Assembly (NCBI GenBank): GCA_018650445.1
Contig: JABIFX010000132.1
Location: 1 to 52,320 of the forward strand
From: Fidelibacterota bacterium
GTDB lineage: Bacteria; Fidelibacterota; UBA8477; JABMPR01
Direction: 5' to 3'
DNA length: 52,320 nucleotides
Positions 12,412-52,320 of this stretch are shown one piece after another. The notes below the pieces were generated by a model. That model made no database searches and was not told the DNA's origin. It saw only the letters and a list, made by a program, of their open reading frames with translations. Each line of letters starts with the position of its first letter. Position 1 is the stretch's first letter. Position numbers and translations under genes: made by a program.

Positions 12412-12460
12412 AAAAAAAGCATGTCTTAGACCTGGCAGGCAGGGAGACATGCTTTTTTAT
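12412..12460. terminator. Bidirectional terminator between the small peptide and nusB
   Basis: AAAAAAAGCATGTCT and AGACATGCTTTTTT form an 8-9 bp stem with A and T runs on either side. It can end transcription from both the plus-strand peptide frame and the minus-strand nusB operon, whose last stop codon is at 12480. Confidence 0.8.
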
Positions 12461-12479
12461 TTTCAACTTATTTTAATGT

Positions 12480-12908: not shown

Positions 12909-12939
12909 GAACTGAGGCCTGATCCTTTCTACGTGTAAT

Positions 12940-24118: not shown

Positions 24119-25125
24119 ATCAGAATAATCATATAGCAAAAATCAAGATTATCCTGCTTCTCTCAATACTTGCTGCCAGCTTGAGTGCTCAAAATGCGAA
24201 TCTGGGCACTGCAGGAGCACAATTTCTCAAGATTCCAATCGGGGCTCGTTCTGCCGCTCTTGGAGGAGCCGTGACAGGCATGTCCATGGATGCAACAGCT
24301 CTTTTCTGGAATCCAGCCGGTATCATCCACAATCATACTCACGCCTTACATGTTTCGCACATCCCCTGGATGACCTTTTTTGATGTCAATGCACTGGCCT
24401 ATACATTGAATCTAAAGGAGCAGGGTGCTATTGGATTTTATGCCCGTACGCTGGGGATGGAGAAGATGGAGATTACCACTGAATATGAGCCGGGTGGAAC
24501 TGGGGAATTTTTCGATTCCCAGGATCTTGAGATGGGCGTCAGTTATGCTCGCAAGCTCATCGATCAATTCAGTTTTGGAATTACAGCCAAATATATCAGA
24601 CAGCGCATCTGGAATGAGATAGCCTCAGGTATCGCTTTTGATTTTGGGACCCATTACAATATCGAATTCCAGAATGCCTCCATTGCCATGTCCTTAAGAA
24701 ATTTTGGACCAGACATTAAAATGGATGGACCAGATTTATTGGTTTTTTATGATGGCTCCGAATATTTCCCGAACCGTTTTATTCCATCCAATAAAAATAC
24801 TGAGGCGTATCCCCTGCCCTTGATTTTTCAATTTGGAATGGGGCTGGACCTGATTAAAGCACAATTCTTCCATTCCAGGTTAGCTCTGGACGTCATACAC
24901 TATAATGATAATGATGAGCAAGTTCTGTTAGGATTGGAATCAACCATTGCACAGAGATTTATTCTGCGTGGAGGGTATAGATTTAATCAGACCGAGCAAC
25001 AGCCAAGTCTGGGAGTAGGGTTACATCAGCGTATTGAAAAAATAGTGATTAAACTAGATTATGCATTTGTAATGCATGAACATTTGGGAGATACCAGATT
25101 CCTGTCACTGGATATTATTTTCTGA
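24115..25125 (+). CDS. PorV/PorQ family outer-membrane protein
   Basis: 336 residues with a signal peptide ending at SLSAQ. It has the hallmark N-terminal strand pattern AGAQFLKIPIGARSAALGGA...DATALFWNPAGI of the PorV/PorQ family, 14-strand FadL-like barrels. These act in type IX secretion: PorV shuttles cargo from the translocon to the attachment complex. The ATG overlaps the cargo gene stop (ATGA), which implies coupled translation. The closeness to a T9SS cargo suggests a dedicated PorV-like partner, although the family is large and many copies have unknown roles. Confidence 0.85.
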   Translation: MNQNNHIAKIKIILLLSILAASLSAQNANLGTAGAQFLKIPIGARSAALGGAVTGMSMDATALFWNPAGIIHNHTHALHVSHIPWMTFFDVNALAYTLNLKEQGAIGFYARTLGMEKMEITTEYEPGGTGEFFDSQDLEMGVSYARKLIDQFSFGITAKYIRQRIWNEIASGIAFDFGTHYNIEFQNASIAMSLRNFGPDIKMDGPDLLVFYDGSEYFPNRFIPSNKNTEAYPLPLIFQFGMGLDLIKAQFFHSRLALDVIHYNDNDEQVLLGLESTIAQRFILRGGYRFNQTEQQPSLGVGLHQRIEKIVIKLDYAFVMHEHLGDTRFLSLDIIF

Positions 25126-36334: not shown

Positions 36335-36904
36335 ATGAAAAAAATGCTTATTGTGCTATTAATCTTAACTGTGGGAATGGCATATTCTCAAACAAAAACT
36401 GCAAAGTACATTGGCTCAAAAAAATGTAAGATGTGTCACAGCAAGGCCGAAGTTGGATCACAATACTCTATCTGGGAAAAAGGACCTCACGCAGGATCTC
36501 TTGAAACCTTGAAGACAGATGCCGCCAAAGCCATCGCTAAAAAGATGGGACTGAAGACTGCTCCAGAACAAACACCAGAATGTCTCACCTGCCATGTGAC
36601 TGGCTGGGGAACAGAAACCGGTTATCAGCTCGAAGTAGATCCGCTTAATAAAAAAGCAGTTAAGAAAAATAATGATCTCAGTCGTGTGGGTTGTGAATCC
36701 TGCCACGGAGCAGGTAGTCTTTACAAATCAAAGAAAACCAAGGCCGCTATTGCTGCCGGTACTATCACAGCTGAATCTGTAGGATTGCTTACCATCAATG
36801 AGAAAACTTGTACAGTATGTCACAATTCAGATTCACCCACATACAAGCCCTTTGATTATGCCGTCCGTATCAAGGAAGTTGCTCATCCAGCACCAGAAAA
36901 ATAG
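36335..36904 (+). CDS. Tetraheme cytochrome c (cytochrome c554-like)
   Basis: 189 residues with a signal peptide (MKKMLIVLLILTVGMAYSQ) and four CxxCH sites: CKMCH, CLTCH, CESCH and CTVCH. The start of the mature protein, KYIGSKKCKMCHSK with IWEKGPHAGSLETL, matches the cytochrome c554-type family. Four covalently bound c-type hemes are expected in the periplasm. A good Shine-Dalgarno (GAAAGGAC) precedes it. It is first in a plus-strand operon with the dodecaheme protein 12 bases later and the c-b fusion further on. Electron carrier role is firm; the partner is inferred from the neighbours. Confidence 0.93.
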   Translation: MKKMLIVLLILTVGMAYSQTKTAKYIGSKKCKMCHSKAEVGSQYSIWEKGPHAGSLETLKTDAAKAIAKKMGLKTAPEQTPECLTCHVTGWGTETGYQLEVDPLNKKAVKKNNDLSRVGCESCHGAGSLYKSKKTKAAIAAGTITAESVGLLTINEKTCTVCHNSDSPTYKPFDYAVRIKEVAHPAPEK

Positions 36905-36916
36905 AAGGATTTCCTA

Positions 36917-37930
36917 ATGAGAGTCAGAACGGCTTTTCTTCTTCTTGGAATCATGGCTGGATTGGTATTTGGCCAAACTGCGACGGAGACAGACAGTATT
37001 CCTGATAAAATTGAGATCGGAATGCTGGAAAATATTTTTGAGCCAGTGCAATTTGATCACAAACTTCACGCTGATATGACTACCATGGGCGAAGGTTGCA
37101 ACACCTGCCATCACCATGGGTCTGAAGGCGTTTATGAGCCCTGTGCAGATTGTCACGTGAGTGGAGAAGAAAATGCCTCCATGACCATGCCCACCATAAA
37201 TGGGGCTTACCATCGAAATTGTCTGAATTGTCACCAGAATTGGACCGGGGATGAAGTATGTAAAACCTGCCATATCCAGAAGAAGTTTCGTTTCAATGTT
37301 CGGAAGAGTTTAGATGCGACCGACATTCTGGCTCATCCTCATGAAGAAATAATTGTACCCGAAGTTTTCAATTTTGTCTCACCAGAGAGTGATCAAAACC
37401 CGGTTTCATTCCAACACAAAGAGCATGTCGAATTGTATAGATTCAAATGCGAAAATTGTCACCGGCAAACCGATTGCTCAACCTGTCACAACTATACACC
37501 TGCTCCCGCAGGCGCTGTAAAATCTCTGGCTGTTCATCATGATCCCTGTAGTAATTGTCATGAAACCGCTAAGGAGGAAGGATGTGGAAGCTGTCATAGC
37601 TCCACTCCATCTCAGGGTTTTACGCATGCCAGGACAGGATTCGAGCTAAAACAATTCCATCAGACCCTAAAATGTAATGCCTGCCACGATGGTACAGAGC
37701 CCATCGTCGCACTTGATCCTACATGTACAAATTGCCATACAAACTTTGAAGTGGATGAATTTGATCATGCAGCCACTGGGTTGATTCTGAATGAGGATCA
37801 TATCGAATTTGATTGCTATGAATGCCATACAGACGATCAGTATGATATCACTCCATCATGTATGGAGTGTCATGATGATGATCTGAGCTTTCCCACGGAT
37901 ATACCGGGTGAAAGAATTCAACTAAAATAA
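36917..37930 (+). CDS. Dodecaheme cytochrome c (three c3-like tetraheme units)
   Basis: 337 residues with a signal peptide ending at LVFGQ and twelve CxxCH motifs (CNTCH, CADCH, CLNCH, CKTCH / CENCH, CSTCH, CSNCH, CGSCH / CNACH, CTNCH, CYECH, CMECH). The hemes fall into three groups of four; the first two follow an F-[DQ]-HKxH distal-histidine motif (FDHKLHAD, FQHKEHVE) and the third follows KQFHQTL, as in class III cytochrome c3. A three-unit tetraheme chain is suited to carrying electrons across the periplasm like a short wire. It sits between the tetraheme protein and the quinol-linked c-b fusion. Confidence 0.92.
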   Translation: MRVRTAFLLLGIMAGLVFGQTATETDSIPDKIEIGMLENIFEPVQFDHKLHADMTTMGEGCNTCHHHGSEGVYEPCADCHVSGEENASMTMPTINGAYHRNCLNCHQNWTGDEVCKTCHIQKKFRFNVRKSLDATDILAHPHEEIIVPEVFNFVSPESDQNPVSFQHKEHVELYRFKCENCHRQTDCSTCHNYTPAPAGAVKSLAVHHDPCSNCHETAKEEGCGSCHSSTPSQGFTHARTGFELKQFHQTLKCNACHDGTEPIVALDPTCTNCHTNFEVDEFDHAATGLILNEDHIEFDCYECHTDDQYDITPSCMECHDDDLSFPTDIPGERIQLK

Positions 37931-37969
37931 CATGTATTTGACCAATACCTTGAGAGGGTTATAAACCTT

Positions 37970-39886
37970 ATGCGCCATACCAAAACCTATCTGTTCATCC
38001 TGACTCTATTTTTGTTTATTCTGGTGATCCCCGCCCTGGGGCAAGATGATGAATATGAATCCCTTGACAGTGATATGTGTGTTGACTGTCATGAAGAAAG
38101 TGAAATGGAAACCATCATCCAGGACGATCTGGATGCCTCCATTCATGAAGGGATAGAATGTCTTGATTGTCACATCTATCATGATACTGAACCTCATACT
38201 GAAGAGGCTGAAAATTTTGTGGCAGGATGTGAAGGTTGTCGGGATTGCCATGAAGACGCATCAGATCAATATCAAGGTCATGGACGCTCCATAAAGGGCG
38301 AATGTGCGGATATGCCCACCTGTTCTGCCTGTCACGGTGATCACAATGTATTGCCCAGCACGATGTTAAACTCAACAGTCAACCCAGCTAATCTGGCCAA
38401 TACCTGCGGCAACTGTCATGAGAACATTGATCTCGTTAATCGCTATGATATTCTGGTTGATCATCCAGTTGAGATTTATAATAGTAGTGTTCACGGCAAG
38501 GCGACTGGTGAAGGCAATATGAAGGCTGCGTCCTGTGATGACTGCCATTCCTCTGGCGGAACATCCCACGAGATTTATCCCCCAACTAATCCAGAATCAT
38601 CTATTTATCACCTTAACATTCCTAAAACATGTGGCAAATGTCACCCTGATGAAGCGAAAGATTATTGGGAAGGTATCCACGGAAAATTGGCTGCCCGAGG
38701 CATGGCCAACGCACCTGTTTGCACAGATTGTCATGGTGAACATGGTATCATCTCTCCTGATGATCCGCTTTCACCGGTTTCATCACATCGTGTCGCGGCG
38801 GCAACTTGCGAGCCCTGTCATGAATCAACAATATTAAACGAGCGCTTAGGGAATCGCGGAGAAGTAAGTAGCTATGTGGATAGTTATCATGGCTTGAAAA
38901 GTCAGGCTGGTGATCTTCATGTAGCCAATTGCGAATCCTGTCACGGCGCTCACCGGATATTGCCAAGTACGGATTCTACGTCATCAATTCACCCCTTAAA
39001 CTTGGCTACCACCTGTGGCGAATGTCATCCCGGCATGAGTGATGAGCTGGCTGCTGTGACCATTCACGGTATTGGGCCTGAAGATCCACGGGCACCTCTG
39101 GCGGTTCTCATCGAGAAAATTTACATTCTGCTTATTGCTGTTACTATTGGCGGGATGTTCCTGCATACCGTTCTTGACTACTTAAAACAAGTACGCATGA
39201 AAATGAAAGAGCCCTCGGTCAGGCGCATGAGAGGTTTGGAGGTGGTGCAACACACCGCACTGCTACTATCCTTCTTTACTCTGGTGATCTCAGGTTTCTC
39301 CCTGCGCTTTAATGAATCCTGGATTGCTGAGTTATTCTTTGGTTGGGAAGGTGGATTCGAGTTCAGAGGTGTGCTTCACAGATATGCCGCTGTATTCATG
39401 ATTGTAACATCCGTTTGGCATCTGTTATTCCTGTTCACAAAACGTGGAAAACAGTTTGTTAAAGATATGGTCCCCGGTATCCGGGACATCCGTGAGTTCT
39501 GGGAAATGATTCTGTACTTCTTTGACTTTAAAAATCATGAGCCTCGATTTGGTCGATTTGCCTATGCAGAAAAGCTAGAATACTGGGCGGGAGTATGGGG
39601 CAATATCGTCATGATAGCCACTGGACTGGTTCTCTGGTTTGACAATTTCTTTATTCAGAAATTTTCCAGCGATCTCATCGATGTCTCCCTGGTTATTCAT
39701 TACTGGGAAGCCTGGTTGGCCACTTTGGCTATTCTTATCTGGCACCTCTATAATACCATCTTCAGACCCAGTGTCGGACCGATGAACACCAGCTGGCTAT
39801 CAGGTAAAATGCCAAAGCAAATGTTTGAACATGAGCATGGTGGAGCCAGCCCAGATCCAGAACTCAACCCCCCTGATGATGAATAA
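37970..39886 (+). CDS. Fused multiheme c / cytochrome b membrane protein (CbcL-like architecture)
   Basis: 638 residues. A signal peptide is followed by a periplasmic domain with eleven CxxCH motifs (residues about 36-350), then four or five transmembrane helices (about 375-615) of a cytochrome b type: LVISGFSLRF, GVLHRYAAVFMIVTSVWHLLF, VMIATGLVLWF, IHYWEAWLATLAILIWHLYNT. Paired histidines in helices support two b-hemes. It ends FEHEHG. The layout is that of Geobacter CbcL, in which a multiheme c domain fused to a diheme b domain takes electrons from menaquinol to the periplasm; direct homology is not claimed. The split genes at 50660-51676 and 49971-50663 encode the same parts separately. 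It is 39 bases downstream of the dodecaheme gene. Confidence 0.9.
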   Translation: MRHTKTYLFILTLFLFILVIPALGQDDEYESLDSDMCVDCHEESEMETIIQDDLDASIHEGIECLDCHIYHDTEPHTEEAENFVAGCEGCRDCHEDASDQYQGHGRSIKGECADMPTCSACHGDHNVLPSTMLNSTVNPANLANTCGNCHENIDLVNRYDILVDHPVEIYNSSVHGKATGEGNMKAASCDDCHSSGGTSHEIYPPTNPESSIYHLNIPKTCGKCHPDEAKDYWEGIHGKLAARGMANAPVCTDCHGEHGIISPDDPLSPVSSHRVAAATCEPCHESTILNERLGNRGEVSSYVDSYHGLKSQAGDLHVANCESCHGAHRILPSTDSTSSIHPLNLATTCGECHPGMSDELAAVTIHGIGPEDPRAPLAVLIEKIYILLIAVTIGGMFLHTVLDYLKQVRMKMKEPSVRRMRGLEVVQHTALLLSFFTLVISGFSLRFNESWIAELFFGWEGGFEFRGVLHRYAAVFMIVTSVWHLLFLFTKRGKQFVKDMVPGIRDIREFWEMILYFFDFKNHEPRFGRFAYAEKLEYWAGVWGNIVMIATGLVLWFDNFFIQKFSSDLIDVSLVIHYWEAWLATLAILIWHLYNTIFRPSVGPMNTSWLSGKMPKQMFEHEHGGASPDPELNPPDDE

Positions 39887-40810: not shown

Positions 40811-41870
40811 CATAGCGAGAATTAACATCAAATATTACTTTCAGCGCTTTGGGATATGGTACTCTTGTGGTATGATCATTTTCCTCCGACAAGGGCTCAT
40901 TCATAACAAGTGCTCAGAGCAGTAGCGACCCAGAGGCATTGTCAAGCAGATCTTGACCTTTAGCCGAAAAATCAAGGTGGCCATGAAACAGCAACAACTC
41001 CATGCAATCATTATGGAATCATTAGCCTTTGAGCGGGCGGTTTTACCTGCAAATATTGAGATGAAACAAGACATCGACATGAATTGTGGCTCAATCTTAT
41101 GTGACAAGACTCAGATTCAACAAATTGTAATCAACCTGTGCAACAATGCCAAACATGCTATGGCAGAAAAGGGCGGAACACTAACAGTAGATCTACATCA
41201 AGTAAGGACCTCTTTTGGCACCAGCGATACTATACTTGAGGCTCTTGAACTCAAAATAAGTGATACAGGCCACGGGAGGGATGCTGAAACTCTGACAAAA
41301 GTTATTGACCCGTTCCTTACTATAAAGGGAGTCGGTGGAACAGGGCTGAGGTTATCGGCTATAAATGGAATTATTGAGTTGATGAATGGTCATATTTCAG
41401 TTATCAGCGAAATTGGGGAGGGAACCACATATATTATTCAATTCCCCGTTGGAATAGAACATGAAGAAGTCACTTCTATCCGATCAAAGGTGCAAACACC
41501 TTCATCCTTCCAGTGTATTTTGCTTGTTGATGATGAAACCAGCATTCGGGACAGCATACAGAGAATTCTCATCCGGAAAGGATTTACGGTTGACAGTGCA
41601 GAGGATGGCAAGCAAGCCCTGGATTTATTCCTAGCAAATTCTGGGAGATACGATCTTATAGTTACCGATTTATCAATGCCCATCATGTCAGGTGCAGATT
41701 TGACCGTGGAGATACGCAAACGAGGATTAAAAATTCCCATCATATTATCTACAGGCAACCTTGGAACTGCAGACCAGGAGGGATACAGCAATATTGGTAT
41801 TGACGTCTGCCTTAAAAAACCCTGGACTGCTGAGGAACTAATTGCTTGTATACGTGAGTTTGGTGCCTAA
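40811..41870 (+). pseudogene. Decayed hybrid histidine kinase (HATPase plus receiver)
   Basis: An intact-looking frame starts at a TTG (40953), but this TTG is the Leu codon inside the conserved helix GIVKQILTFSRK. Reading further back in the same frame, this helix begins at 40935 and is cut by TAG at 40923. Upstream coding traces of the phosphoacceptor region (40830-40934, patterns such as LLSALWDMVLL and DHFPPTRAHS) lie in a different frame and contain TAA at 40904. The downstream part keeps an N-box (IVINLCNNAKHAM) and a full receiver domain with VDDE, the phospho-Asp in IVTDLSMP and the late Lys in LKKPWT. The ATP-lid region is eroded: DPFLTIKGVGGTGLRLS in place of the usual EPFFTTK-GTGLGLS. 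Frameshift and stop together with motif loss point to a pseudogene, though the receiver could still be expressed. Confidence 0.75.
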
Positions 41871-41896: not shown

Positions 41897-43525
41897 CTAA
41901 TAGACATCTCTCAAATGTTTGCCTTCATGACACTTCAATGTACAGGTTCCATGTCCTGGTTCAAGTCCCTCAATCTTCTTTTCACCGTTAATACTGGTGA
42001 TGTGGGACTGATTCAAATCTATCAGGCCTGGGGAATCGACACTACCATGCGGATTGTGACAGGCTGAGCAGCTATAGCCGGCTCTATCGATATGAAGACT
42101 ATGGAATTTAAAGCCATCATTACCTGTAATCTTACGCTGGTCGTGACATTTAAAGCATAATTCCTGTTCCTCTATGCTGGCATAGGGAAAGTCACTGTAT
42201 GGTGCCTTAAGAATGTGGGGTAAACTTGAGCCATGAGGACCCTGAGGACCATAGGGATCGTCGTTTCCATGACAGTCAGAACAGGTGATCAGAGACTGTT
42301 CACTCCAACCATCTTTCAAACTTGGGACATGTTGTGATAATCCAATATTTTCGATGGGATGGTAGCTCCGATTTCCCACACTGAGAAGTCGGGCAACATC
42401 ATTTCCAGAATTTACATTCTGATTTTGACCATGACATTTGTAACATACCTCGTACTCATAATCAACCTGCTCTTTTGGAAAGCCTATCGCATCGACGCCT
42501 TCAACAAAAGCCAGACTTCCATCCAATACGGGTGAAATATTTTTCTCAGTAACAGCATGAGGATTATGGCAATCGCCACAACGAACAAAGCGATCGTCAG
42601 CCAACCCGAAGTTCCATGGAGAATCACTATCTGAATCATAACCAACGTCTGTGACATTGGGATTAATTCGAATGGGGTGAGTAAATGGTTTCTCGAACAC
42701 TTCTTCAAGATTTTTTATGCTGGCGATTTCTGTATCTTCATCAGTTCTACCATCATGACAGGTCAGGCAGAGTGTGTTTTCATCGGCCTTGAGTAATTTT
42801 GCATTGGTAGGCAGAGTATGGATGGAATGGCATTGTAAACAGGCAACTTCCTCAAGATCAGCATGTAATGGATTCTGGGGATTTCCGTGTGTGGACAATT
42901 CCCAATTCTGCATGTGATGGCATTCCATACAAATTTCTGATCCCTGGTTTGATACCCTCAGGAAATGACCCTTTTCATTGTTATGAGGATCATGACAGGT
43001 GATACAACCAACCTGATTTTGGCTCGTGAGCATCAGTTCCGAAGATGCATCGGGACGGCTGATCTCTTTCCCTGACTTTGGAAAATTAAAGAGATGCATG
43101 TTGTAATTGGCCGGTGCCTGAACTTCAGGAGCAGTCATGTTCACCTGGGGATGTTTCTGGTCTCCTCGATGAGGGAAACTACGCGCCATTGATCCATCAT
43201 GACAAGAGAGACAATTGCGACTCCCTGGATCCAGGGTGTGAACATGCTCATCCGCAGGATCTATTTCTTTATTTATGTCAAATCTTGGGACTGAGATCTT
43301 CCGATACCACAGGGGTTCAACTGCAGTAGCCTTATTGGGCACATGACATGAACGACAAAGTGAGAAATCGACGAGAATGCTATCCAGCATCAACGCATCT
43401 TTATTCATCATCAGGTTATGTGGAGTATCAGCAATCTTGCTCTTGTTCTGAAGATCCTCCAATCCTTGACCCCATAAAGACGTTACGAGTATACACAGGA
43501 CGGGAATAAATTTTATTTTGATCAT
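41897..43525 (-). CDS. Multiheme cytochrome c with 11 CxxCH and one CX3CH site
   Basis: 542 residues from the ATG at 43525, whose ATGA overlaps the barrel gene stop; the longer frame to 43549 lacks support. After the signal peptide (MIKIKFIPVLCILVTSLWGQ) there are eleven CxxCH sites, plus CTLKCH near the C-terminus, a CX3CH variant. The part CITCHDPH...FLR...CMECH matches the doubled-CXXCH motif family also found in the 18-heme protein. It is last in the minus-strand operon, directly behind the predicted outer-membrane barrel, a position often taken by the barrel's partner cytochrome. Periplasmic or surface location is not decided: no lipobox and no T9SS domain are seen. Confidence 0.92.
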   Translation of the reverse strand: MIKIKFIPVLCILVTSLWGQGLEDLQNKSKIADTPHNLMMNKDALMLDSILVDFSLCRSCHVPNKATAVEPLWYRKISVPRFDINKEIDPADEHVHTLDPGSRNCLSCHDGSMARSFPHRGDQKHPQVNMTAPEVQAPANYNMHLFNFPKSGKEISRPDASSELMLTSQNQVGCITCHDPHNNEKGHFLRVSNQGSEICMECHHMQNWELSTHGNPQNPLHADLEEVACLQCHSIHTLPTNAKLLKADENTLCLTCHDGRTDEDTEIASIKNLEEVFEKPFTHPIRINPNVTDVGYDSDSDSPWNFGLADDRFVRCGDCHNPHAVTEKNISPVLDGSLAFVEGVDAIGFPKEQVDYEYEVCYKCHGQNQNVNSGNDVARLLSVGNRSYHPIENIGLSQHVPSLKDGWSEQSLITCSDCHGNDDPYGPQGPHGSSLPHILKAPYSDFPYASIEEQELCFKCHDQRKITGNDGFKFHSLHIDRAGYSCSACHNPHGSVDSPGLIDLNQSHITSINGEKKIEGLEPGHGTCTLKCHEGKHLRDVY

Positions 43526-45171
43526 AACTGCCTCACAAAACGCATCCACACGGAGAAATTTTCATCAAAGATGGTATCGGGTTTACCCTGAGCCTGAACT
43601 TCAAGCGCCCAATTGAAATAGTGCATATTCACTTTAATAAATGAATTCAGCCAAAGATAGTCGGGATAGATTTCTGATTGATAACGATACATACTGATCA
43701 AATTCAAGCTGCTACCAGAAGACATATGATAGGTGAACCTTGTATTCAGGTGAAGACGTAAATCACTCTCATCTCCCAGCTCACTGACCGTAAGATGATC
43801 CAGCGAGGCTCTCAATTTTCTCTTTACATATTTGAATTGAACGTTGTGTGTAATCGCATTGCGCAATGTATCTTCAGAAAAATCAAGATCCGTTCCAAAA
43901 TGGTTCAACAATCTAAATGTGTTGGCAACTTGAACTTTCTGACCGGGCCACAGATCAACAGTTAGATCTAAACGATGGTCTATATCGTATCTTGGATCTT
44001 TGCTCACTTCATCTAATCCAATAAATATTTCACCCTCGGAGTGATCACTTAGACCCACACGTAATTTCCGGTTCTGCATCAGAGGAACCCTTTCCTCTAA
44101 TTCAAAGCGCATATCAAAACCAGATCCAAAGCGGTAAGATTCTTTATATCCAAACTGCAGGACTCCAAGGGCAGATTTTCTATCTCCGAGACGCCAATGC
44201 ATTCCGGCGAGATAAGCTCTCCAATGGTATTGGGGATCGCCACTAAGGGGTTTGACCTTGCTTCCCTCGCCAAGCAGCTGAAAGGCGATGGCCTCGCTCT
44301 TCTTCCAGCGATAGTCCAGGTCATAGGCTTGTGTGTTGAGATAACTGCCACGATAGGATACTTGTTGATTGTTAACGTGTGCCCAGACAGTGGAACGGTT
44401 GGATAATTGATAGTTTACCCGTTGATAAACTCGCCAATAAGCATTTCCACCATAATTATAAACGGAATTAATTGCTGTCCAGTTTAAGCCTTTTACAGGA
44501 CTGCCGTACCACCGAATGGACATGTTGGATCTGTCGTCGTCCCCGCTTGTAACATTATTACTAATCAAATCTTTCTCACCACGGAAACGGAACTGTAAGC
44601 CCAGGAGTTTTTGTTCAAGATGAAGTTTCGCAAATTGGTGATCTATTGTATTGGTGTCTCGCTTGGAATTTCTGAATCCATAAGCAAAAAGTAATCGTCC
44701 ATTATTGGGGAGAGGGGAATGAAATTGAAGTCCACTGACCTGCTCCTTATGTTGCAGACTATCCTGAGCGATCTGCATGGGATTTCTCAATTGAGAATAG
44801 CTGAACATCTCAATAGTAGTTTGACGAAAGGGCTGAAATTGTGCTTTGACCTGAAACTCGGGAATTAATTCCGTCAATTCAAGCTGAGTCGATCCACGGA
44901 GGAGACCTCCACCACTAAAACTATAATTAAAATCCAGATAATTAAACTGCTGTTGGATTCCCCAGTTTATACGTTCCATATGGACTAAGTTGTTACCATC
45001 TCCAGCAACATTGGAGATCATTCCAACCCGACTCTCAACTCTACCATTACTTGCCATATCAAGGGCGATCGCTTGATTGCCAAGCAGAACCAAGCTGAGA
45101 ACACCCATCACCATAAATCTTAGGGAGGGTGTTGTCTGTTGTGTAGTATTAAGCTTCATATCCCTGCTCAC
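43522..45171 (-). CDS. Predicted outer-membrane beta-barrel (porin-like conduit)
   Basis: 549 residues. The GTG at 45171 shares its G with the TAG stop of the NHL lipoprotein gene, so coupled translation supports this start; the ATG at 45159 is the alternative. A signal peptide (LRFMVMGVLSLVLLGNQAIA) is followed by alternating aromatic/polar strand patterns over the whole length (FNYLDFNYSFSGGGLL, GRLLFAYGFRNSK, NLISMYRYQSEIYPDY) and a C-terminal strand ending WMRFVRQL, as in large barrels of 18-26 strands. There are no CxxCH motifs. Its size and its place between cytochromes resemble the barrels of porin-cytochrome complexes (MtrB, OmbB) in which the barrel sheathes a cytochrome; homology was not shown. 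Confidence 0.75.
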   Translation of the reverse strand: MSRDMKLNTTQQTTPSLRFMVMGVLSLVLLGNQAIALDMASNGRVESRVGMISNVAGDGNNLVHMERINWGIQQQFNYLDFNYSFSGGGLLRGSTQLELTELIPEFQVKAQFQPFRQTTIEMFSYSQLRNPMQIAQDSLQHKEQVSGLQFHSPLPNNGRLLFAYGFRNSKRDTNTIDHQFAKLHLEQKLLGLQFRFRGEKDLISNNVTSGDDDRSNMSIRWYGSPVKGLNWTAINSVYNYGGNAYWRVYQRVNYQLSNRSTVWAHVNNQQVSYRGSYLNTQAYDLDYRWKKSEAIAFQLLGEGSKVKPLSGDPQYHWRAYLAGMHWRLGDRKSALGVLQFGYKESYRFGSGFDMRFELEERVPLMQNRKLRVGLSDHSEGEIFIGLDEVSKDPRYDIDHRLDLTVDLWPGQKVQVANTFRLLNHFGTDLDFSEDTLRNAITHNVQFKYVKRKLRASLDHLTVSELGDESDLRLHLNTRFTYHMSSGSSLNLISMYRYQSEIYPDYLWLNSFIKVNMHYFNWALEVQAQGKPDTIFDENFSVWMRFVRQL

Positions 45172-46202
45172 TATTGTGCGAAATAACGAAATATTTGAAC
45201 CCTGTTATTATATGGATCAGCAACAAACAATCGCTGCTCTTCATCAATAAACAAATTGCGAGGCATCAAGAACTGACCCTGCCCCGTCCCTGTTTCACCG
45301 AAATAGAAAAGCAGGGCACCAGTAGCATCAAACATTTGAATGTTGCCAAAGGCCGCATCACCGATAAAAAGAGTACCATCAACTGCCAGGGCTATGCCCT
45401 TGGGAAAAGCAAAACTCCCAGGGACCTGATCATATTCACCAAAACTATTGATAAATTGGAAGTCAGGATCGTATTGTTTGACCTTACGAGCCATTCCATC
45501 CAAAACATAGATATTCCCATTGGCAGCATCGACTGCCATGGCAATGGGACTTTGCAAAACACCATGGGAATGTCCACCTTGACCCAATTGAGCGAGATAT
45601 TCACCTCCAGGTGAAAAAACAAATACCCTATTGGCTGGTGGATCTGCTATTAGTAACCGATTGGAATGGCCATCGTAGCAAAGACCGCCAGGTCTTTGCA
45701 TGTCGGCATGATTGATTGTCCCCACCAGATTGAATTCATAATCCAGAATGTGAACGGTGCCACCCATTAAATCACTAACAAAAATATTATCTGGTCCTGC
45801 AGCAATGGATGTGGGATGTAGAATTTCGGAAAGATGAACTCTTTCACTGTTCACCCATTCCCCTTCTACTTCGTTGTAAATGGAGATATATCCTGCTTCA
45901 GACTCAACGATGAGTAAACGTCCCTTCTGATCAACTACCATGTCGGTGGGCTGATTTAAGGTAAATTTACTTTCCGGTCCCACGATCATCCCCAGAAAAC
46001 GACTAAATAGCCCCTCAGGAGTGTCCTGAGCACCTTCAATGACTTGCTCAAGGGTCAAGTAGGGCTGCGGGATATCAGCTGGGTAATTCACAGCCTCGCT
46101 GATCTTGTTGCTTGAAGCACATCCAACAAGTCCAGACATAAAAACCGCTGATATGAGAAATAAAACTGTTAAGTATGGTTTAAAAGACCTGATGACTCTC
46201 AT
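45171..46202 (-). CDS. NHL-repeat beta-propeller lipoprotein
   Basis: 343 residues from the ATG at 46202, one base after the stop codon of the 18-heme gene and following AGAGAAAGAGAT. The signal ends in a lipobox, SGLVGC, so the protein is a lipoprotein. Six NHL-type repeats follow (LTL..., GPDNIFVSDLMGGTVHILD, HSNRLLIADPPANRVFVFS, ANGNIYVLDGMARKVKQYD, GTLFIGDAAFGNIQMFD, EQRLFVADPYNNRVQIF), enough for a propeller. NHL propellers bind other proteins or ligands. Here it is coupled to the barrel gene, so it probably helps to assemble or hold the barrel-cytochrome complex; that role is inference. Confidence 0.88.
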   Translation of the reverse strand: MRVIRSFKPYLTVLFLISAVFMSGLVGCASSNKISEAVNYPADIPQPYLTLEQVIEGAQDTPEGLFSRFLGMIVGPESKFTLNQPTDMVVDQKGRLLIVESEAGYISIYNEVEGEWVNSERVHLSEILHPTSIAAGPDNIFVSDLMGGTVHILDYEFNLVGTINHADMQRPGGLCYDGHSNRLLIADPPANRVFVFSPGGEYLAQLGQGGHSHGVLQSPIAMAVDAANGNIYVLDGMARKVKQYDPDFQFINSFGEYDQVPGSFAFPKGIALAVDGTLFIGDAAFGNIQMFDATGALLFYFGETGTGQGQFLMPRNLFIDEEQRLFVADPYNNRVQIFRYFAQ

Positions 46203-46203
46203 C

Positions 46204-48282
46204 TTAGTATCTCTTTCTCTTAACCGGGTCATGATAGTAATTGTATTTCCAGAGTGTGCTTTCACCATGACAATCAGTACAAAGTGTCAGCTGACTGGGA
46301 TTACGCAAAAATGATGTGAGGTCATTACCTTCTTCGTTTTCAGAGCCCAGCTTTTGGAATTTCTGTTTGTAAGACCAGGAATGAGGATTGTGACAGGTAA
46401 AGCAATCAATATGTCCAACAGTCATACTGGGACCTGCTTCACTAAAGAGTGGGAAGTCCAACCAGTCTCCTGTTCCTCTGGCAGTAGGAGTCAGAATGCC
46501 GAACTCACGAGGGTGGCTATAGCCTTCCACAAGTTTTTTTGATGCAATACCATTTTCACTATGGCAGCTGAAGCAATGTTTTTCATTAAAACTCGCACCA
46601 GGTGCATCACCCCATTTTGCGAGAATACCATATTGTGTTTCAGCGTTATGCGGAGCATGGCAAAGGCTACAAGCGCTTCGATCTTCCTCGGTCAAATCAT
46701 GGTCTGAATTTAAAATCGACTCTTGTTCAGGATGGCAATCCAGGCAAAGCTTTGGTTCCGGCCAGTTTGAAATAGTCAGGAATGAATTTCTGTCATCTCC
46801 CTTTAAATCAACTGTTTGAGATTTTTCAACTGTCTTACCCCACTTATGCGGATCATGACAGGTATTACAACTCAGTAAAGTTTGACCATCCTTTTTATAA
46901 CCATGCAGATTGCTCTTTGATTCAAAAGGTACACCAATGGGATGGTTATTATGAACCACTGACGTGGCGAAATGTTGACCATCGTGACAGCGCATGCACA
47001 GGACAGTATAAGGATCATCTTCTGTTGATCCTTCCAGGGCGTTCGTATGAGCTCCATGACAGACGGTACACTGACCGTTCAATGTATTCGATTCTCTGAA
47101 TAGCTGCTGGAAGCCTTCTCGGGCTACACTATGGTCAGAATTAAACATGCTGGATTGTCCGGCGTGACAGCTCACACATAACTGACCCTGGGCATCATCA
47201 GGCAAGCGCAAAAAGGAGGTATACTCAGTGCCCTCTTCATTACCCGCATTCACAGCGTATTTGTTTGAGAATTCCCACTGATGCGGATCATGACAGGATT
47301 TACATAGTAATTTGTCACCTGCTTTTATTCCCAAAGCAGGAATATTTTTTCTCAGCATAATATTTGATACGGGGTGACCTGCATGTGAAAATGTTTTTTC
47401 CTGACCCAGACCATTATCACTATGACAATCGATACAATAGCCATTCTCCCCTGCTTTAGGGTCAATTTCCATAGACCACATATGCTTCGCTTTTCCATTA
47501 TGACTGACATGGCAAGCGGCACAAGGATCGTTCCCACTAAAATCAGGTCCGATATCACTTGATTTATTCATCAGGGAGCTGGTGAGATCATGATCAGTAA
47601 GCTTGATGTTAAAATAGGCTTCATGACATGAGGAACAGAGTTCACTTCGGTCACTTCCCGTCACACCAACCACGGATTCTGTTCCATGAATAGGATGACA
47701 GGTCATGCATTCCATACTACCATCTTTACCCCAGAACGTACTTTCTGGCATTGTATTGTCTGGTGATACCTTCACTTTGATGGGGTGATTTCTGTGAGAT
47801 TTGGCTTGATTGGAGTGGCAATCCAGACAGAGCGCAGAATTCATCTTTGCCATTCGCAGGAAAGGCGCAAGACCACCATTTCGTGTTGGTTTCAGACTAT
47901 GGGGAGTGTGGCAGGTACCACAATAAATCTTGCCGTCCTTGTCAAGTGGTAGATCTTGAATATTTGCGTGCCTTACATCCATATCCATTTGGTGGTTGCT
48001 GGATGCGAAGGTTTGACGAGAATCTTTTACTGTTCCATCGTGACAGGTATAACACATGGCTGCCGTCGGAATACGAGCAGGCATCCCCTGGATCTGGATG
48101 GGAGCATCAATATCTGGGAGTAACGATTTCTCTGGATCGATGTTATCGTGCCAGCTTACATGGCAGGTGACACAATCCAGACTCACTTTGCGACCATCAG
48201 GGTTGTGTTGCCCAAAGACAAAAGCACTAAACAAACACAAAGCAGCAAAAACGATGATTAATCTTTTTGTGGTGTTCATCAT
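46204..48282 (-). CDS. 18-heme cytochrome c of doubled-CXXCH repeats
   Basis: 692 residues with a signal peptide (MMNTTKRLIIVFAALCLFSA) and eighteen CxxCH motifs. The chain is built of repeated pairs in which CxxCH-x-P-H is followed, after about 10-35 residues, by an FLR-type strand and a second CxxCH (examples: CGTCHTPH...FLR...CLDCH; CKSCHDPHQW...SFLR...CVSCH; CNTCHDPHKW...SFLT...CLDCH; CFTCHNPHSW...SFLR...CTDCH). This is the doubled-CXXCH motif pattern. The ATG overlaps the NHL gene stop (ATGA) and the NHL lipoprotein begins one base after its own stop, so it is wedged between two NHL genes. A long chain of hemes is suited to electron storage or transport across the periplasm or to the surface. 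Confidence 0.95.
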   Translation of the reverse strand: MMNTTKRLIIVFAALCLFSAFVFGQHNPDGRKVSLDCVTCHVSWHDNIDPEKSLLPDIDAPIQIQGMPARIPTAAMCYTCHDGTVKDSRQTFASSNHQMDMDVRHANIQDLPLDKDGKIYCGTCHTPHSLKPTRNGGLAPFLRMAKMNSALCLDCHSNQAKSHRNHPIKVKVSPDNTMPESTFWGKDGSMECMTCHPIHGTESVVGVTGSDRSELCSSCHEAYFNIKLTDHDLTSSLMNKSSDIGPDFSGNDPCAACHVSHNGKAKHMWSMEIDPKAGENGYCIDCHSDNGLGQEKTFSHAGHPVSNIMLRKNIPALGIKAGDKLLCKSCHDPHQWEFSNKYAVNAGNEEGTEYTSFLRLPDDAQGQLCVSCHAGQSSMFNSDHSVAREGFQQLFRESNTLNGQCTVCHGAHTNALEGSTEDDPYTVLCMRCHDGQHFATSVVHNNHPIGVPFESKSNLHGYKKDGQTLLSCNTCHDPHKWGKTVEKSQTVDLKGDDRNSFLTISNWPEPKLCLDCHPEQESILNSDHDLTEEDRSACSLCHAPHNAETQYGILAKWGDAPGASFNEKHCFSCHSENGIASKKLVEGYSHPREFGILTPTARGTGDWLDFPLFSEAGPSMTVGHIDCFTCHNPHSWSYKQKFQKLGSENEEGNDLTSFLRNPSQLTLCTDCHGESTLWKYNYYHDPVKRKRY

Positions 48283-49154
48283 TTGATCTGCCAGACACTT
48301 ACTTTGCTAGCGAATGACTCTACCACCCACAAACGATCCTGTTTATCTATATAAACTCCCATAGGGGCGGATAAGGCGAGACTTTCACCCTCGCTTGTGG
48401 CGATCCCCAAATATTTTCCGGAAATAGAGAAGGCTTGAATCGCACCTGTATAGCCATCAGCCACCCAAACACGTTTTTGTGAATCGAGAGCTACCCCTTT
48501 GGGGCTGAATATTTGTCCTTTTTCGACCCCTGGCTTGGCAATGATTTGCGGGTAACGACCGCTTGGTGAAAAGGAGACTACACGTCGGTTGAGGATGTCT
48601 CCGATAATGATTCTATTTTCAGGACCAGGAGCCAGGAAGCCAGGATTGATAAATTCGCCAACCTTCTCTCCTCTATTCCCCCAGTAATATTTTTCTTTGA
48701 AATCCTTATCCAGAACCGTGATAGTATGATTCAGGCGATCTGTGACAATAAAGTTGTCACCCATATCGGTGACATCTACAGGTTCAGTTTGATGATCTAG
48801 CGGGACAATCTGGCTGATTCGTCCATTCAACTCCATTTTCAGAAGACGTGAGCGAGGTGTATCGGCAATCCAGAGATCGCCATTAATCCAGGCAATTCCA
48901 ACTGCTTTGTAAATAGATTCGCGCTGGGGTTTAATTTCAACCACTTCACCACTGACTTTGAGCTGAACAACTCGATCATTCATACCATCCAGTACAAAGA
49001 CATCACCTCGATCATTTCCACAGAGATCAGTAGGGAAATTCAAATCCGCTTCAAGGGTCCTGACGTGGGAGAAACTTACTTCCTGAGCAATAAGACTTTG
49101 TACCAGGCCAAAACTGGCAACCAGAACAACAATTAGCAGCTTCTTAAATCTCAT
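48279..49154 (-). CDS. NHL-repeat beta-propeller protein (secreted)
   Basis: 291 residues from the ATG at 49154 with GAGAG before it; a TTG at 49184 would extend the frame into the preceding gene and is less likely. Signal peptide MRFKKLLIVVLVASFGLVQSLIAQ with no lipobox. About six NHL repeats are visible: GDVFVLDGMNDRVVQL, GDLWIADTPRSRLLKME, NFIVTDRLNHTITVLD, NRIIIGDILNRRVVSFS, KRVWVADGYTGAIQAFS, DRLWVVESFASKVSVW. It lies between the triheme protein and the 18-heme cytochrome, overlapping the latter by 4 bases. Likely a periplasmic or surface scaffold paired with the cytochromes. Confidence 0.88.
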   Translation of the reverse strand: MRFKKLLIVVLVASFGLVQSLIAQEVSFSHVRTLEADLNFPTDLCGNDRGDVFVLDGMNDRVVQLKVSGEVVEIKPQRESIYKAVGIAWINGDLWIADTPRSRLLKMELNGRISQIVPLDHQTEPVDVTDMGDNFIVTDRLNHTITVLDKDFKEKYYWGNRGEKVGEFINPGFLAPGPENRIIIGDILNRRVVSFSPSGRYPQIIAKPGVEKGQIFSPKGVALDSQKRVWVADGYTGAIQAFSISGKYLGIATSEGESLALSAPMGVYIDKQDRLWVVESFASKVSVWQIK

Positions 49155-49176
49155 GAAAGCTCTCGAATTCTCTGAT

Positions 49177-49974
49177 TTACTCAAAAACAGGAGGGAAATA
49201 GAATGATTCGTATTTCTCTACCATGCCCACTACTGCTGAATGTCGCATTTCATTTAATCTATCGCCTTTAAAACCCAGATACTCCCATGGGAATGATGCT
49301 GATTCTGAATGACAGTTCAAACAGGTCAAAGCTTTATCGCCGACCAGAGCCTCAGCAGCTTTCCTTGCCTTGACTTCATCCACGTATTCCCCGGCATCTA
49401 CTGAGTTTCGATACGTTAACGCTTGTTCAGAACTGTAGGGTGTGTATAGACGGGTTTTGATATCCCCATCATAAATGACGGGGAGAATTTTACTGATAAA
49501 GTTGTCGGAGCCTGAAAGCTTTGCATCAGCATCGCGGACTAACCCGTAGGCACCCTGTCTGGTAATGGAATTATCCACACCAAAGTTATGCCATTCAAAT
49601 TTAACTGGTCGACCCGGTTTTTCATCGATATGACAGGTCATGCAGGACATATATCTAGAGTGTTGATTATTAAAAGCACGCGTTCTCAGGTCTTTTTCGT
49701 GTGGCCATAACGAATGACAGCTCAAACAATTTTCCTGCTGATCCATGGGTAAAAAATAACGTTCAGAGGTCTGATGAAAATGACTCTGACGATTCTCATA
49801 ACTATCATAATAGCTATTTAGTTGTTCGACATAATTGGGGAATCGCGATTCGGAAAGAACTTCTGCTTCATGTGGGGTATCATGAGAGACCACCGCTTTG
49901 ATGAGAGTTACTGAAATAAACGTCCCTAGAAGCAGGGCAAAGAGGCCATAGAAGAGTTTCAAGGCTTTTTTCAT
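49177..49974 (-). CDS. Membrane-anchored triheme cytochrome c
   Basis: 265 residues. One N-terminal hydrophobic helix (LFYGLFALLLGTFISVTLIK), probably an uncleaved inner-membrane anchor, then three CxxCH sites (CLSCHSLW, CMTCHID, CLNCHSE). The spacing between hemes is wide, so the fold is not a compact c3. It overlaps the cytochrome b gene stop by ATGA, so it probably receives electrons from that b-type subunit and passes them to the periplasmic multiheme proteins. No family name is offered. Confidence 0.85.
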   Translation of the reverse strand: MKKALKLFYGLFALLLGTFISVTLIKAVVSHDTPHEAEVLSESRFPNYVEQLNSYYDSYENRQSHFHQTSERYFLPMDQQENCLSCHSLWPHEKDLRTRAFNNQHSRYMSCMTCHIDEKPGRPVKFEWHNFGVDNSITRQGAYGLVRDADAKLSGSDNFISKILPVIYDGDIKTRLYTPYSSEQALTYRNSVDAGEYVDEVKARKAAEALVGDKALTCLNCHSESASFPWEYLGFKGDRLNEMRHSAVVGMVEKYESFYFPPVFE

Positions 49975-50663
49975 TTTGAAGCCTCCTCTCTGGCTTTGAT
50001 TTCTTCAAGCTCAAGGGGATGCTCATGTTCCATCTCTTCTTCGGATAAGGTTCCCTTATACCAGACCTTGTTTGCAGGCCAGATACGAGGATTGAAATGA
50101 ACATTATAAAAATGCCAGATAATAATGGCTAACAACGCTAACATAGCTTCATCGCTATGGGCGATGTAGGCGATTTGAATTACAATTCCTGGTAAATATT
50201 TGCTAAATAGGACTGGGAACCACAAAACGATTCCACTACCTGCCATGATAAACATACCCCAGAATACAGCCCAGTAATCAAACTTCTCAATATATGAGAA
50301 TCTATGAAACTTTGGACGTTCATCAGACAAAAACAGGAAGTACTTCATGTTCTCTATAATATTCTTACCGTCTCTTCCAGTAGGCAAGAGATGCATTTCT
50401 GCCAGGGATGGTCTCTTTTTAATGAGATTATAACCGAGATAAAGGATGTGAAAGCCGAAATCAAGAATCATAACAGCTGCAGCAAACCGGTGAATAATCC
50501 GAGCTTTCTCAATACCGCCAGCGGCTGACATGACAACACTCCAAAACTCGCTTTCAGGAAATTTGATGGGAAACCCGGTCAAGACCAGAATGATGAATGG
50601 AACAAACATGAAAATATGCTGTAATCGTTGACTGAGGGTAAAACGCGTGTAGTCTTGACTCAT
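49971..50663 (-). CDS. Membrane cytochrome b subunit (CbcB-like architecture)
   Basis: 230 residues from the ATG at 50663, preceded by GGAGGAAAG and overlapping the upstream stop as ATGA; the frame to 50684 is less likely. Four to five transmembrane helices with histidines suited to two b-hemes: LQHIFMFVPFIILVLTGFPI, IIHRFAAAVMILDFGFHILYL, FIMAGSGIVLWFPVLF, LALLAIIIWHFYNVHF. The end, MEHEHP, mirrors the FEHEHG end of the fused protein at 37970, and the helices align in order. Together with the multiheme protein before it, this is a split version of the c-b fusion and is expected to oxidise or reduce quinol. Confidence 0.9.
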   Translation of the reverse strand: MSQDYTRFTLSQRLQHIFMFVPFIILVLTGFPIKFPESEFWSVVMSAAGGIEKARIIHRFAAAVMILDFGFHILYLGYNLIKKRPSLAEMHLLPTGRDGKNIIENMKYFLFLSDERPKFHRFSYIEKFDYWAVFWGMFIMAGSGIVLWFPVLFSKYLPGIVIQIAYIAHSDEAMLALLAIIIWHFYNVHFNPRIWPANKVWYKGTLSEEEMEHEHPLELEEIKAREEASK

Positions 50664-51676
50664 TTTTCTTTCCTCCGCATCCATATATCACCAACCCAGC
50701 GTCCAAAATCGAGGAAAATGTGTGCAAATAGGAGAGCCATGGTAGCAGCAGTTAATATGATGAATCCCCATTCTACATAGAAAAGGATGGGATTATTTTG
50801 AGTGGTAGGTTCTGAGTGAATTGCAGATGCGGCAAACGTACTGGATACACCTGAGTGACAATAACTATTTGCGCTACAAGTTTGCTGAATATTGTTGGGA
50901 TGAATACTTGAATTAGGGTCTTCTGCAGAAAGATTTAAATGGTTGCGGTGACAATCCATGCAATTTGCAACCTCATTCAGACCGCGTTTTAGAGCCTTGC
51001 CGTGAAAATGTCTTTCATATCCTCCAACCTGAGTGAGGTTGACGTCAAATTGTTTCATATGCCCTTGATCAGCATGGCATGATGAACATAGCTCTACGAC
51101 ATTTATGGAAGCCTCGGCAGTCCTATGACCCGAATGGGAGCTCACGTGAAGAATCACACCTGCAAGACCCTCTCCTTCGTGACAGCGAACACAATGTTGA
51201 CTATTCTCTTGTAACGCTTCATCATTGACAACATTCCGAAATGTATTTGAGTGACAATACTTACAATCGGGCTTAGCCTGATTTTTTTCAACTGAATACT
51301 CAGAATTGAAACCATGGGCACTAATGGCATGTGCATCGGTCTGCTCGGTATGTGAGTAACCTGTGAGGGCAAATGGTTTTGTAATGTGACAGGCCTTGCT
51401 ACATTCAACCTTGGCAACCTCTACTGGATGGGGAAAGACGTTGATATCTGTATGACAATCTCTACAGATGACATTTCTGTGAGTTGAATGACTGTAGGCA
51501 TTTGCGGTAACCTCGAAACTTCGCAATCCTTCTGAAGGTGTTGCAATACCCATCATTGCCAAACTATGGCATAGATTGCAGTTTTCAGCATCGGCCTGTT
51601 GTGCCGGTGCAGAAAGTGCAGTGAGCATCACAAGCAAAAGTACTAATATTGAATGTCTATAGATCGTGGCAGGCAT
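50660..51676 (-). CDS. Multiheme cytochrome c with C-terminal membrane helix
   Basis: 338 residues from the ATG at 51676, inside the end of the preceding gene (20-base overlap). Signal peptide (SILVLLLVMLTALSAPA), then six CxxCH sites plus two unusual ones: CSKACH (CX3CH) and CSANSYCH (CX5CH). The C-terminus is one transmembrane helix (VEWGFIILTAATMALLFAHIFLDF), matching the first membrane helix of the fused protein at 37970 after the same TC...CH-x-G segment. It is the c-type partner of the cytochrome b gene that follows with an ATGA overlap, like CbcA beside CbcB in Geobacter. Confidence 0.9.
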   Translation of the reverse strand: MPATIYRHSILVLLLVMLTALSAPAQQADAENCNLCHSLAMMGIATPSEGLRSFEVTANAYSHSTHRNVICRDCHTDINVFPHPVEVAKVECSKACHITKPFALTGYSHTEQTDAHAISAHGFNSEYSVEKNQAKPDCKYCHSNTFRNVVNDEALQENSQHCVRCHEGEGLAGVILHVSSHSGHRTAEASINVVELCSSCHADQGHMKQFDVNLTQVGGYERHFHGKALKRGLNEVANCMDCHRNHLNLSAEDPNSSIHPNNIQQTCSANSYCHSGVSSTFAASAIHSEPTTQNNPILFYVEWGFIILTAATMALLFAHIFLDFGRWVGDIWMRRKEK

Positions 51677-52320
51677 AGCACAAATTCTCTTTTGATAGGC
51701 GTAAGAAACGCTGGTTCTCTCCGTCACCCTCGTAAACCACCTGATCGGCTGCGAGGGTCCCCCGGTTATGTGTGTAGTGACAGGTGTTGCATTGAATAAG
51801 ATTATCCTCGGAAAGGGGCAAGGTTAGCCCAAATTTTTGTTGTGTTTCATAAAAGCGCTTAATCGTCGCTTTTTTGGATAATTCAATATTCTTACCTTGA
51901 TGATTTTGCTCATGGGAATGGAGAGAGTGGCACTTGTTGCAGGTTGCAGCCATATCCAGCTGCATCTCTCGGGCAATAGTAGGGTGATCATTTTTACTGG
52001 GTTGTTTTACATGACACTGTAAACAAGTTGAATTGTCGATACTACCATCAGATTGAATCTGTTTGTGTGGATTCATCTTCTTATAGTCTGCTTTGTCGTG
52101 ACAATTGTAGCAGAAATCGATCTCTCGTTTATAGGGTCCCCCTCTTAAGAAGGTCCTGTTGGAGCGGTCAATTTTGCAGGCGACCTGGTGACAGGTCAGA
52201 CATCCCAGGCTACCATTTGAATCCAGCTTAAAGCCCTCTGGGACAGAAATCTGATCCGATTCAGTGTTTACATTGTTAAGGGGGTGGATCAAGGCATTCA
52301 CTGCGGCAGCAGTATGACAC
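51657..52320 (-). CDS. Multiheme cytochrome c, 5' end beyond the window
   Basis: At least 221 residues, open to the window edge. The frame does not start at the GTG at 52301: the codons before it read C-H-T-A-A-A, so the edge cuts another CxxCH motif. Six complete CxxCH sites follow (CLTCH, CYNCH, CLQCH, CNKCH, CNTCH, CYACH). Two stretches have the doubled-CXXCH form with an FLR strand (CLTCHQVACK...TFLR...CYNCH; CNTCHYTHNR...RFLR...CYACH). It overlaps the next cytochrome gene by 20 bases and is the first visible gene of the minus-strand operon, whose promoter lies outside the window. Confidence 0.9.
   Translation of the reverse strand, partial: CHTAAAVNALIHPLNNVNTESDQISVPEGFKLDSNGSLGCLTCHQVACKIDRSNRTFLRGGPYKREIDFCYNCHDKADYKKMNPHKQIQSDGSIDNSTCLQCHVKQPSKNDHPTIAREMQLDMAATCNKCHSLHSHEQNHQGKNIELSKKATIKRFYETQQKFGLTLPLSEDNLIQCNTCHYTHNRGTLAADQVVYEGDGENQRFLRLSKENLCYACHDL

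Follow-up and report, generated by a model that had tools for sequence, protein, structure and literature searches.

A candidate trans-outer-membrane electron conduit encoded together with a quinol module in one operon of a Fidelibacterota bacterium

We analysed a 52,320-nucleotide stretch of DNA (here called the window; GenBank assembly GCA_018650445.1, contig JABIFX010000132.1) from an uncultured marine bacterium of Candidatus Neomarinimicrobiota/Marinimicrobia (Fidelibacterota; SAR406), and found that an operon on its minus strand (41897-52320) probably encodes an electron conduit through the outer membrane that is joined to a quinol module of its own, giving a path across the whole envelope. 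Conduits of this kind are known from bacteria that use metals or electrodes. New here are the combination of an NHL-type conduit with a quinol module in one operon, a barrel without a family match and a domain resembling a nanowire subunit in the conduit cytochrome. In the path that we infer, provided that the genes g9 to g1 of the operon are expressed, g8 and g7 would oxidise menaquinol at the inner membrane and pass electrons to the triheme anchor g6 and on to the 18-heme cytochrome g4, with the 8-heme cytochrome g9 where this is present, both presumably periplasmic, while the NHL protein g5 may serve as a scaffold. Electrons would then enter the 12-heme cytochrome g1, which may run through or be docked in the predicted 28-strand barrel g2, with the NHL lipoprotein g3 holding it in place. 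Once at the surface, the electrons would move to multiheme and rhodanese proteins encoded upstream, possibly also to an OmcE-type filament encoded elsewhere, and the final extracellular acceptor could be a manganese or iron oxide, sulfur species or a partner. An earlier note on this DNA had proposed such a quinol-to-surface path. This agrees with a quinol-oxidising c-b module, periplasmic cytochromes, a barrel and a conduit cytochrome being encoded together, and with related sets adjoining in other phyla, whereas the extracellular transfer itself is what we infer.

The gene content, the coupling and the heme motifs can be read directly from the DNA. The nine genes (g9 to g1, 5' to 3') are co-directional and tightly coupled, all nine open reading frames (ORFs) are present, and the junctions described in the earlier note were found again exactly: ATGA at 50660, 49971, 48279 and 43522, a TAG/GTG sharing one base at the g3/g2 boundary (45171) and TAA-G-ATG, with a gap of one base, at the g4/g3 boundary (46204). 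Its heme counts were likewise reproduced, with 18 CXXCH in the 18-heme cytochrome, 11 CXXCH and one CX3CH in the 12-heme cytochrome and three motifs in the triheme anchor. However, the operon is longer than the nine genes that had been proposed, as relatives carry more genes upstream. Because the contig is exactly 52320 bases long and ends at base 52320, inside g9, this gene lacks its 5' end and the path cannot be called complete, as had been claimed. The Pfam search that the note had suggested matched cytochrome c families in the c-type genes, NHL in g3 and g5 and Ni_hydr_CYTB in g7, but left the barrel g2 without a match. In the NCBIfam scan the sole model above cut-off was a short doubled-CXXCH domain, found in g1 and g4.

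The quinol module is made up of g8 (50660-51676, with the start at ATG 51676 being our choice), a multiheme c protein with a C-terminal membrane helix, and g7 (49971-50663), a cytochrome b with a match to Ni_hydr_CYTB (E 1.1e-12). Six CXXCH, one CX3CH and one CX5CH were counted in g8; the CX5CH (residues 284-291), at the position of which three relatives carry CX4CH, is possibly the site of an eighth heme. In these three relatives (L047, L049 and L052) g8 and g7 are joined as a single protein of 559-583 aa. The fused form matched one long protein each in Geomonas oryzae (E 1.1e-60) and Geotalea sp. SG265 (E 5.0e-66), the latter also holding a weaker match in a 220-aa frame. Nine CXXCH and a b domain were counted in both homologues, which we take to have the CbcL architecture. 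CbcL-like proteins have a role in metal reducers. Together, g8 and g7 show the same combination as CbcL and CbcBA, a multiheme c domain with a cytochrome b of the Ni_hydr_CYTB family, and by homology they are a CbcL-type quinol-cytochrome module that is split in the window and fused in some relatives.

Between this module and the barrel lie the putative periplasmic carriers. The triheme cytochrome g6 (49177-49974) has an N-terminal hydrophobic helix as its predicted anchor, and its similarity to NapC/NrfH is weak and below cut-offs. It is followed by g5 (48279-49154 with the start at ATG 49154, or TTG 49184), an NHL-repeat, beta-propeller protein in which no lipobox was found, and by the 18-heme cytochrome g4 (46204-48282), homologues of which in other phyla carry 16-24 CXXCH. 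At the other end of the operon g9 (51657-52319) encodes a secreted multiheme cytochrome c; alignment with full-length relatives, which have 284-288 aa and eight motifs, shows that six of the eight motifs are left in the window.

The NHL-repeat lipoprotein g3 (45171-46202) has the lipobox LVGC, the Cys of which is invariant (7/7). The following gene g2 (43522-45171) is an outer-membrane beta-barrel by prediction: the AlphaFold2 model consists of a signal helix and 28 strands, more than ordinary porins have. Foldseek of this model returned FimD, TonB receptors and other outer-membrane barrels as top matches, and Mtr chain B aligned among many tied structural matches. No Pfam or NCBIfam model matched g2 at E 0.01, and the MtrB_PioB family was absent at E <= 0.01. 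With no Pfam match and MtrB one of many tied structural matches, g2 was rejected as an MtrB homologue. A common origin with the barrel-sized proteins of 650-700 aa was also rejected, the hhalign probability of 59.8 being insufficient, and the g2 profile matched no ORF in 69 loci outside the close set described below.

The conduit cytochrome g1 (41897-43525) appears to contain a domain known from a cytochrome filament. A g1 profile compared with the PDB matched OmcE (7tfs, E 3.9e-15; 7TFS is OmcE according to PMC12954529), a putative multiheme cytochrome c (9yuq, E 3.3e-10) and, weakly, Mtr chain A (6r2q_A, which is labelled otherwise in the match table; E 1.4e-8). The 7tfs match falls in two stretches, hemes 1-2 and then hemes 3-4, in order. 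The OmcE-like part lies at residues ~36-213, the remainder of g1 holding eight motifs. The tetraheme neighbour in locus L071 matched 7tfs over residues 15-180 (E 2e-12). A tetraheme model built from 42 tetraheme proteins of the loci matched 64/64 12-heme homologues, 63/64 of them end to end, with a median of 170 bits and one protein scoring 11.7 bits; the close homologue in L057 was matched at residues 17-214. As the 42 proteins had been picked by similarity to g1, this comparison alone would be circular, and it is the PDB matches that are independent of it. For comparison, 196 further ORFs that contain at least four motifs gave a median of 15.5 bits and a maximum of 222.7; 21 of these reached 40 bits and 16 reached 60 bits, and the 14 that were inspected look OmcE-like or 12-heme beyond the length or motif filters, or are partial matches.

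Four CXXCH in the order and spacing of OmcE, together with the accompanying histidines, are found in the N-terminal part of g1, except for one histidine. The N-terminal HN/HD histidine is kept in 41/42 tetraheme proteins and 63/64 12-heme homologues, whereas the His after heme 1 (TPH; about residue 72 of g1) is missing in 10/10 close loci and kept in 53/54 other homologues, and because of this loss one heme of g1 may be ligated differently. The genome of the window (G000) also has a separate OmcE-like tetraheme gene (contig C163, 189-824; locus L139), which encodes 211 aa (E 3.5e-26) and lies at the edge of a contig of 8566 bases beside NtrC-like regulator and sensor genes. At E 0.001, the doubled-CXXCH domain was matched in g1, g4 and this gene alone. 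In another genome of the genus (G002) g1 is followed after about 1.3 kb by an OmcE-like tetraheme gene of the same orientation. A structure prediction of g1 was discarded for its low confidence, and readings of hemes as catalytic (NrfA, NrfB, MccA) were set aside, the matches covering short heme stretches.

In both OmcS and OmcE the heme at the subunit interface takes a His ligand from the neighbouring subunit (reviewed in PMC12954529). The OmcE-like domain in g1, taken with this shared ligand, leads to the speculative and rather unlikely idea that g1 is the socket of a cytochrome nanowire, the N-terminal third being a full OmcE-type tetraheme domain, with the histidine motif at the N-terminus of OmcE-like proteins retained, that would cap the filament through a heme ligand shared with its first subunit. 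The 8-heme remainder of g1 would then pass through the barrel, with the NHL propellers as a collar. If true, this would apply to the g1 family as a whole, across many phyla and in Uet-type loci too, and would answer how cytochrome filaments connect to the cell.

A scan of genome contigs with the g1 alignment gave at least 331 confirmed loci, of which the best 80 were kept for comparison. The nearest 11 (L057-L067; the close loci) are metagenome-assembled genomes of Candidatus Neomarinimicrobiota/Marinimicrobia with up to 95% identity, placed in Fidelibacterota by the tree tool, and, to judge by isolate names such as SI036 and BS150m, Saanich Inlet and the Black Sea are likely places of origin. 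The comparison of gene order in related genomes, also proposed in the earlier note, showed the g8-to-g1 order to be identical in 8/8 close loci that reach g8, with g8 and g7 fused in one (L065); L060, L062 and L067, which are cut by contig ends, have the same order as far as the sequence goes. A chance arrangement of genes is excluded by this conservation. Less constant is g9, with eight motifs in 5/8 of these loci and no ORF match in L061 and L063. A 233-aa frame in L066 (1174-1875) matches the g9 profile (120 bits) without any CXXCH and is possibly a remnant, decayed or frame-shifted g9. Among 60 relatives g2 was present in 22 (18/19 of the genus, 1/1 other family member, 3/3 of the order and 0/37 in the rest of the phylum). 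Matches to g6 were found in 28/245 genomes of the phylum, with at least 57% identity in 14, all of the same genus, the others being far weaker. The operon is conserved within the genus and order, not in the remaining phylum sample. A plasmid search with g4 gave no match. In L062 (6388-9268) and L049 (11999-14932) a second large multiheme protein, with 19 motifs in L062, and a cytochrome b form a pair right after the 12-heme gene.

Beyond the phylum, the neighbourhood of g1 homologues recurs. In the best 80 loci an NHL gene ends at most 3.5 kb upstream of the g1 homologue in 65, a heme-free, Cys-poor ORF of 480-860 aa, counted as barrel by size and absence of hemes alone, is seen in 52, and both together in 48; the g1 homologue starts at most 3.5 kb from the locus edge in 13/80. 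Leaving aside L057-L067, the counts are 54/69, 41/69 and 37/69. A single large family of conduit-like cytochromes that spans many phyla regularly has NHL genes next to it. A set of 12-heme, NHL and barrel-sized genes is also present in L105 and L106 (Geotalea and Geomonas). Cytochromes like g4 (at least 100 bits) were found in 5/69 loci, namely in Proteobacteria (L071), Planctomycetota (L074 and L100), Sulfurimicrobium (L112) and Desulfobacteraceae (L136); no g4 match was found in the genome behind L109, and those in the Geomonas and Geotalea genomes were weak. In L071, L074 and L100 the g4-like gene follows a c-b module and counterparts of g6 and g5, and these genes share their strand with a nearby NHL/12-heme set, so the conduit set and the set leading from quinol to the large cytochrome travel together beyond the phylum. 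The Sulfurimicrobium locus has most parts of the operon, with ResB and cytochrome c assembly genes (11948-13974) right after its 11-heme gene and no barrel-sized gene upstream of it.

In a g1 tree of 34 rows, nine inner branches of which are open, the eight rows of the window clade stand apart, with support of 100/100 and a branch length of 1.64. Four 11-heme proteins (L125, L126, L133 and L135), which align with g1 over conserved heme motifs, form a clade at 100/100, joined by that of L112 at 100/98. G002 carries a second set on the contig of its operon (L140, G002:C101), consisting of an NHL protein, a 251-aa multiheme protein, a 651-aa heme-free protein, another NHL protein, a 12-heme protein, further cytochromes and an OmcE-like protein. 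The 12-heme protein of this set groups with L091, apart from the window clade, and the 651-aa protein is present in G002 alone (1/25 genomes).

The same conduit could be run inward, so that Fe(II), reduced sulfur or a partner supplies the electrons and quinone is reduced by the cytochrome b module, which we regard as a minor possibility. The resemblance of the g7/g8 module to proteins of metal reducers argues for the outward direction. Acyl-CoA dehydrogenase, thiolase and amino-acid (ELFV) dehydrogenase are also encoded in the window, as would suit a heterotroph that needs a sink for electrons. On the other hand, in the g1 tree the Sulfurimicrobium protein and the 11-heme proteins share one clade, Uet, the closest NHL/undecaheme set among those described, is from cathode-oxidising Tenderiales and Gallionella iron oxidisers (PMC10734462), and PCC3 has been modelled for electron uptake (PMC5566968).

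The part of the operon that is missing at the 5' end can be seen in relatives, where it holds a MerR-family regulator (L037), a multiheme protein with about 10-12 motifs and usually a double-rhodanese lipoprotein. The signal of the multiheme protein ends in FW-x-C, possibly but not certainly a lipobox. Immediately upstream in L037, the ORFs encode MerR, dipeptidase, glycosylase, rhodanese and multiheme proteins. The system may serve an extracellular sulfur substrate (S0, polysulfide or thiosulfate), with the double-rhodanese lipoprotein and the upstream multiheme protein as terminal reductase or binder, but we consider this unlikely. The double-rhodanese gene (Pfam E 6.2e-17) stands ahead of the quinol module in L037, L045 and L047 and in 7/8 close loci whose sequence extends to that point. 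Another rhodanese lipoprotein, ExtH of Geobacter, belongs to a porin cluster tied to selenite and tellurite reduction (PMC5877670), yet mutants indicate that ExtHIJKL supports metal reduction too (PMC6148476). Moreover, the ORF lists of G002, G019 and G021 do not include the rhodanese protein. None was found in the assembly of the window either, a negative without information value given the truncated contig and a genome completeness of 86.75%. The earlier note had held that a reductase for a soluble substrate would speak against its proposal; no such model reached cut-off among the proteins scanned, and among solved structures no enzyme was a good match to the profile made for the multiheme protein encoded upstream (best E 0.066).

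It is improbable that there is no conduit and that the cytochromes instead make up a respiratory chain in the periplasm that serves a soluble acceptor, with a porin of the ordinary kind next to it, since the FimD and TonB receptor matches of the barrel model and the weak NrfA, NrfB and MccA matches of single heme stretches are outweighed by the lack of any reductase family at cut-off, by the strand number of the barrel and by the translational coupling of the barrel gene between the NHL lipoprotein and the 12-heme gene, with both of which it is conserved.

A second cytochrome cluster in the window (36335-39886, plus strand) points at the operon. It encodes a 189-aa protein like cytochrome c554 (1bvb, E 5.9e-11), a 337-aa protein, for which 12 motifs were counted in the counterparts from L058, L059 and L064, and a 638-aa fusion of a multiheme part and Ni_hydr_CYTB; a similar gene with 11 motifs adjoins the operon in L057-L060, L063 and L064. 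Tail to tail with the operon (40953-41870, plus strand) lies a gene with a histidine-kinase ATPase domain and a response-regulator receiver. Further away, an FlgD_ig protein with a Por_Secre_tail match below cut-off and a PorV-like protein (203-1549 and 24115-25125) hint at type IX secretion.

Marinimicrobia (SAR406) made up 27-28% of the community in the sulphidic zone of the Black Sea (PMC8359207), and mesopelagic lineages have been credited with a variety of cytochromes (PMC6143742). In the open-licence literature that was searched no extracellular electron conduit is reported for Marinimicrobia. If real, the conduit would add respiration with particles or partners to the chemistry of such waters, and the nanowire-subunit-like domain in its cytochrome makes the joining of filament and cell directly testable.

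Among known systems with NHL proteins and an undecaheme cytochrome, the Uet complex of Candidatus Tenderia and Gallionella comes nearest; besides its NHL proteins and 11/12-heme cytochrome it has a barrel and triheme cytochromes (PMC10734462). With its heme motifs aligned to those of the 11-heme proteins and a place in one tree with them, g1 corresponds to the UetJ-type cytochrome, and g3 and g5 to the two NHL-repeat proteins, though g4 lies between them. In L125, L126 and L135 a PPIC-type isomerase, a heme-free ORF of 592-788 aa, three-heme genes, NHL and an 11-heme gene stand in a row, and judged by the layout described in PMC10734462 and by the isomerase gene their 11-heme proteins would be of the UetJ type; L133, where the 11-heme gene alone was seen, was rejected as such a layout. 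The window operon differs in that no isomerase domain (UetB in Uet) was found in g1-g9 or just upstream in L037, and no row of small trihemes. For the extracellular tetraheme cytochrome UetA no gene was seen within the operon, but G002 has its OmcE-like tetraheme gene downstream of g1. The operon adds the quinol module, the 18-heme cytochrome and perhaps a barrel of its own, and its g1 clade is separate.

Other systems share single aspects. The Oet-type conduit (OetABI) of syntrophic sulfate reducers and Geobacterales is alike by its described composition alone, with a porin, a periplasmic cytochrome, a surface lipoprotein and filament cytochromes nearby (PMC10553843), but the available text of that paper never uses the term NHL. 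PCC3 of Fe(II) oxidisers resembles the operon by description in its porin, large periplasmic cytochrome (median 21 hemes) and probably b-type inner-membrane protein; it differs in a very large extracellular cytochrome and a five-helix inner-membrane protein with HX13H motifs, as against Ni_hydr_CYTB, NHL proteins and a 12-heme cytochrome here (PMC5566968). The extHIJKLMNOPQS cluster of Geobacter likewise combines a rhodanese lipoprotein, a porin, 12-heme and other cytochromes and a cytochrome b (PMC5877670, PMC6148476). Membership in this type of operon, our first idea from the rhodanese lipoprotein, was dropped because the descriptions available in these papers include a Rieske protein and a predicted selenoprotein cytochrome and in neither text the term NHL, and because no Ext-named model was among the NCBIfam matches. 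The barrel and cytochrome logic of MtrCAB is shared, with chain B aligning to the g2 model and chain A weakly to g1, whereas the operon has NHL proteins, no MtrC-like gene and a barrel with 28 predicted strands and no Pfam match. CbcL and CbcBA share the multiheme c domain, membrane helix and Ni_hydr_CYTB, as one or two ORFs; here there are eight heme motifs instead of nine, and the module is encoded within a conduit operon. NHL proteins in cytochrome clusters have been noted before (PMC10376724, PMC12016550, PMC9769857), with two of these papers suggesting complex assembly or mineral binding. The earlier note had not recognised the gene content as a described system; parts of it were already described for Uet and PCC3 (PMC10734462, PMC5566968).

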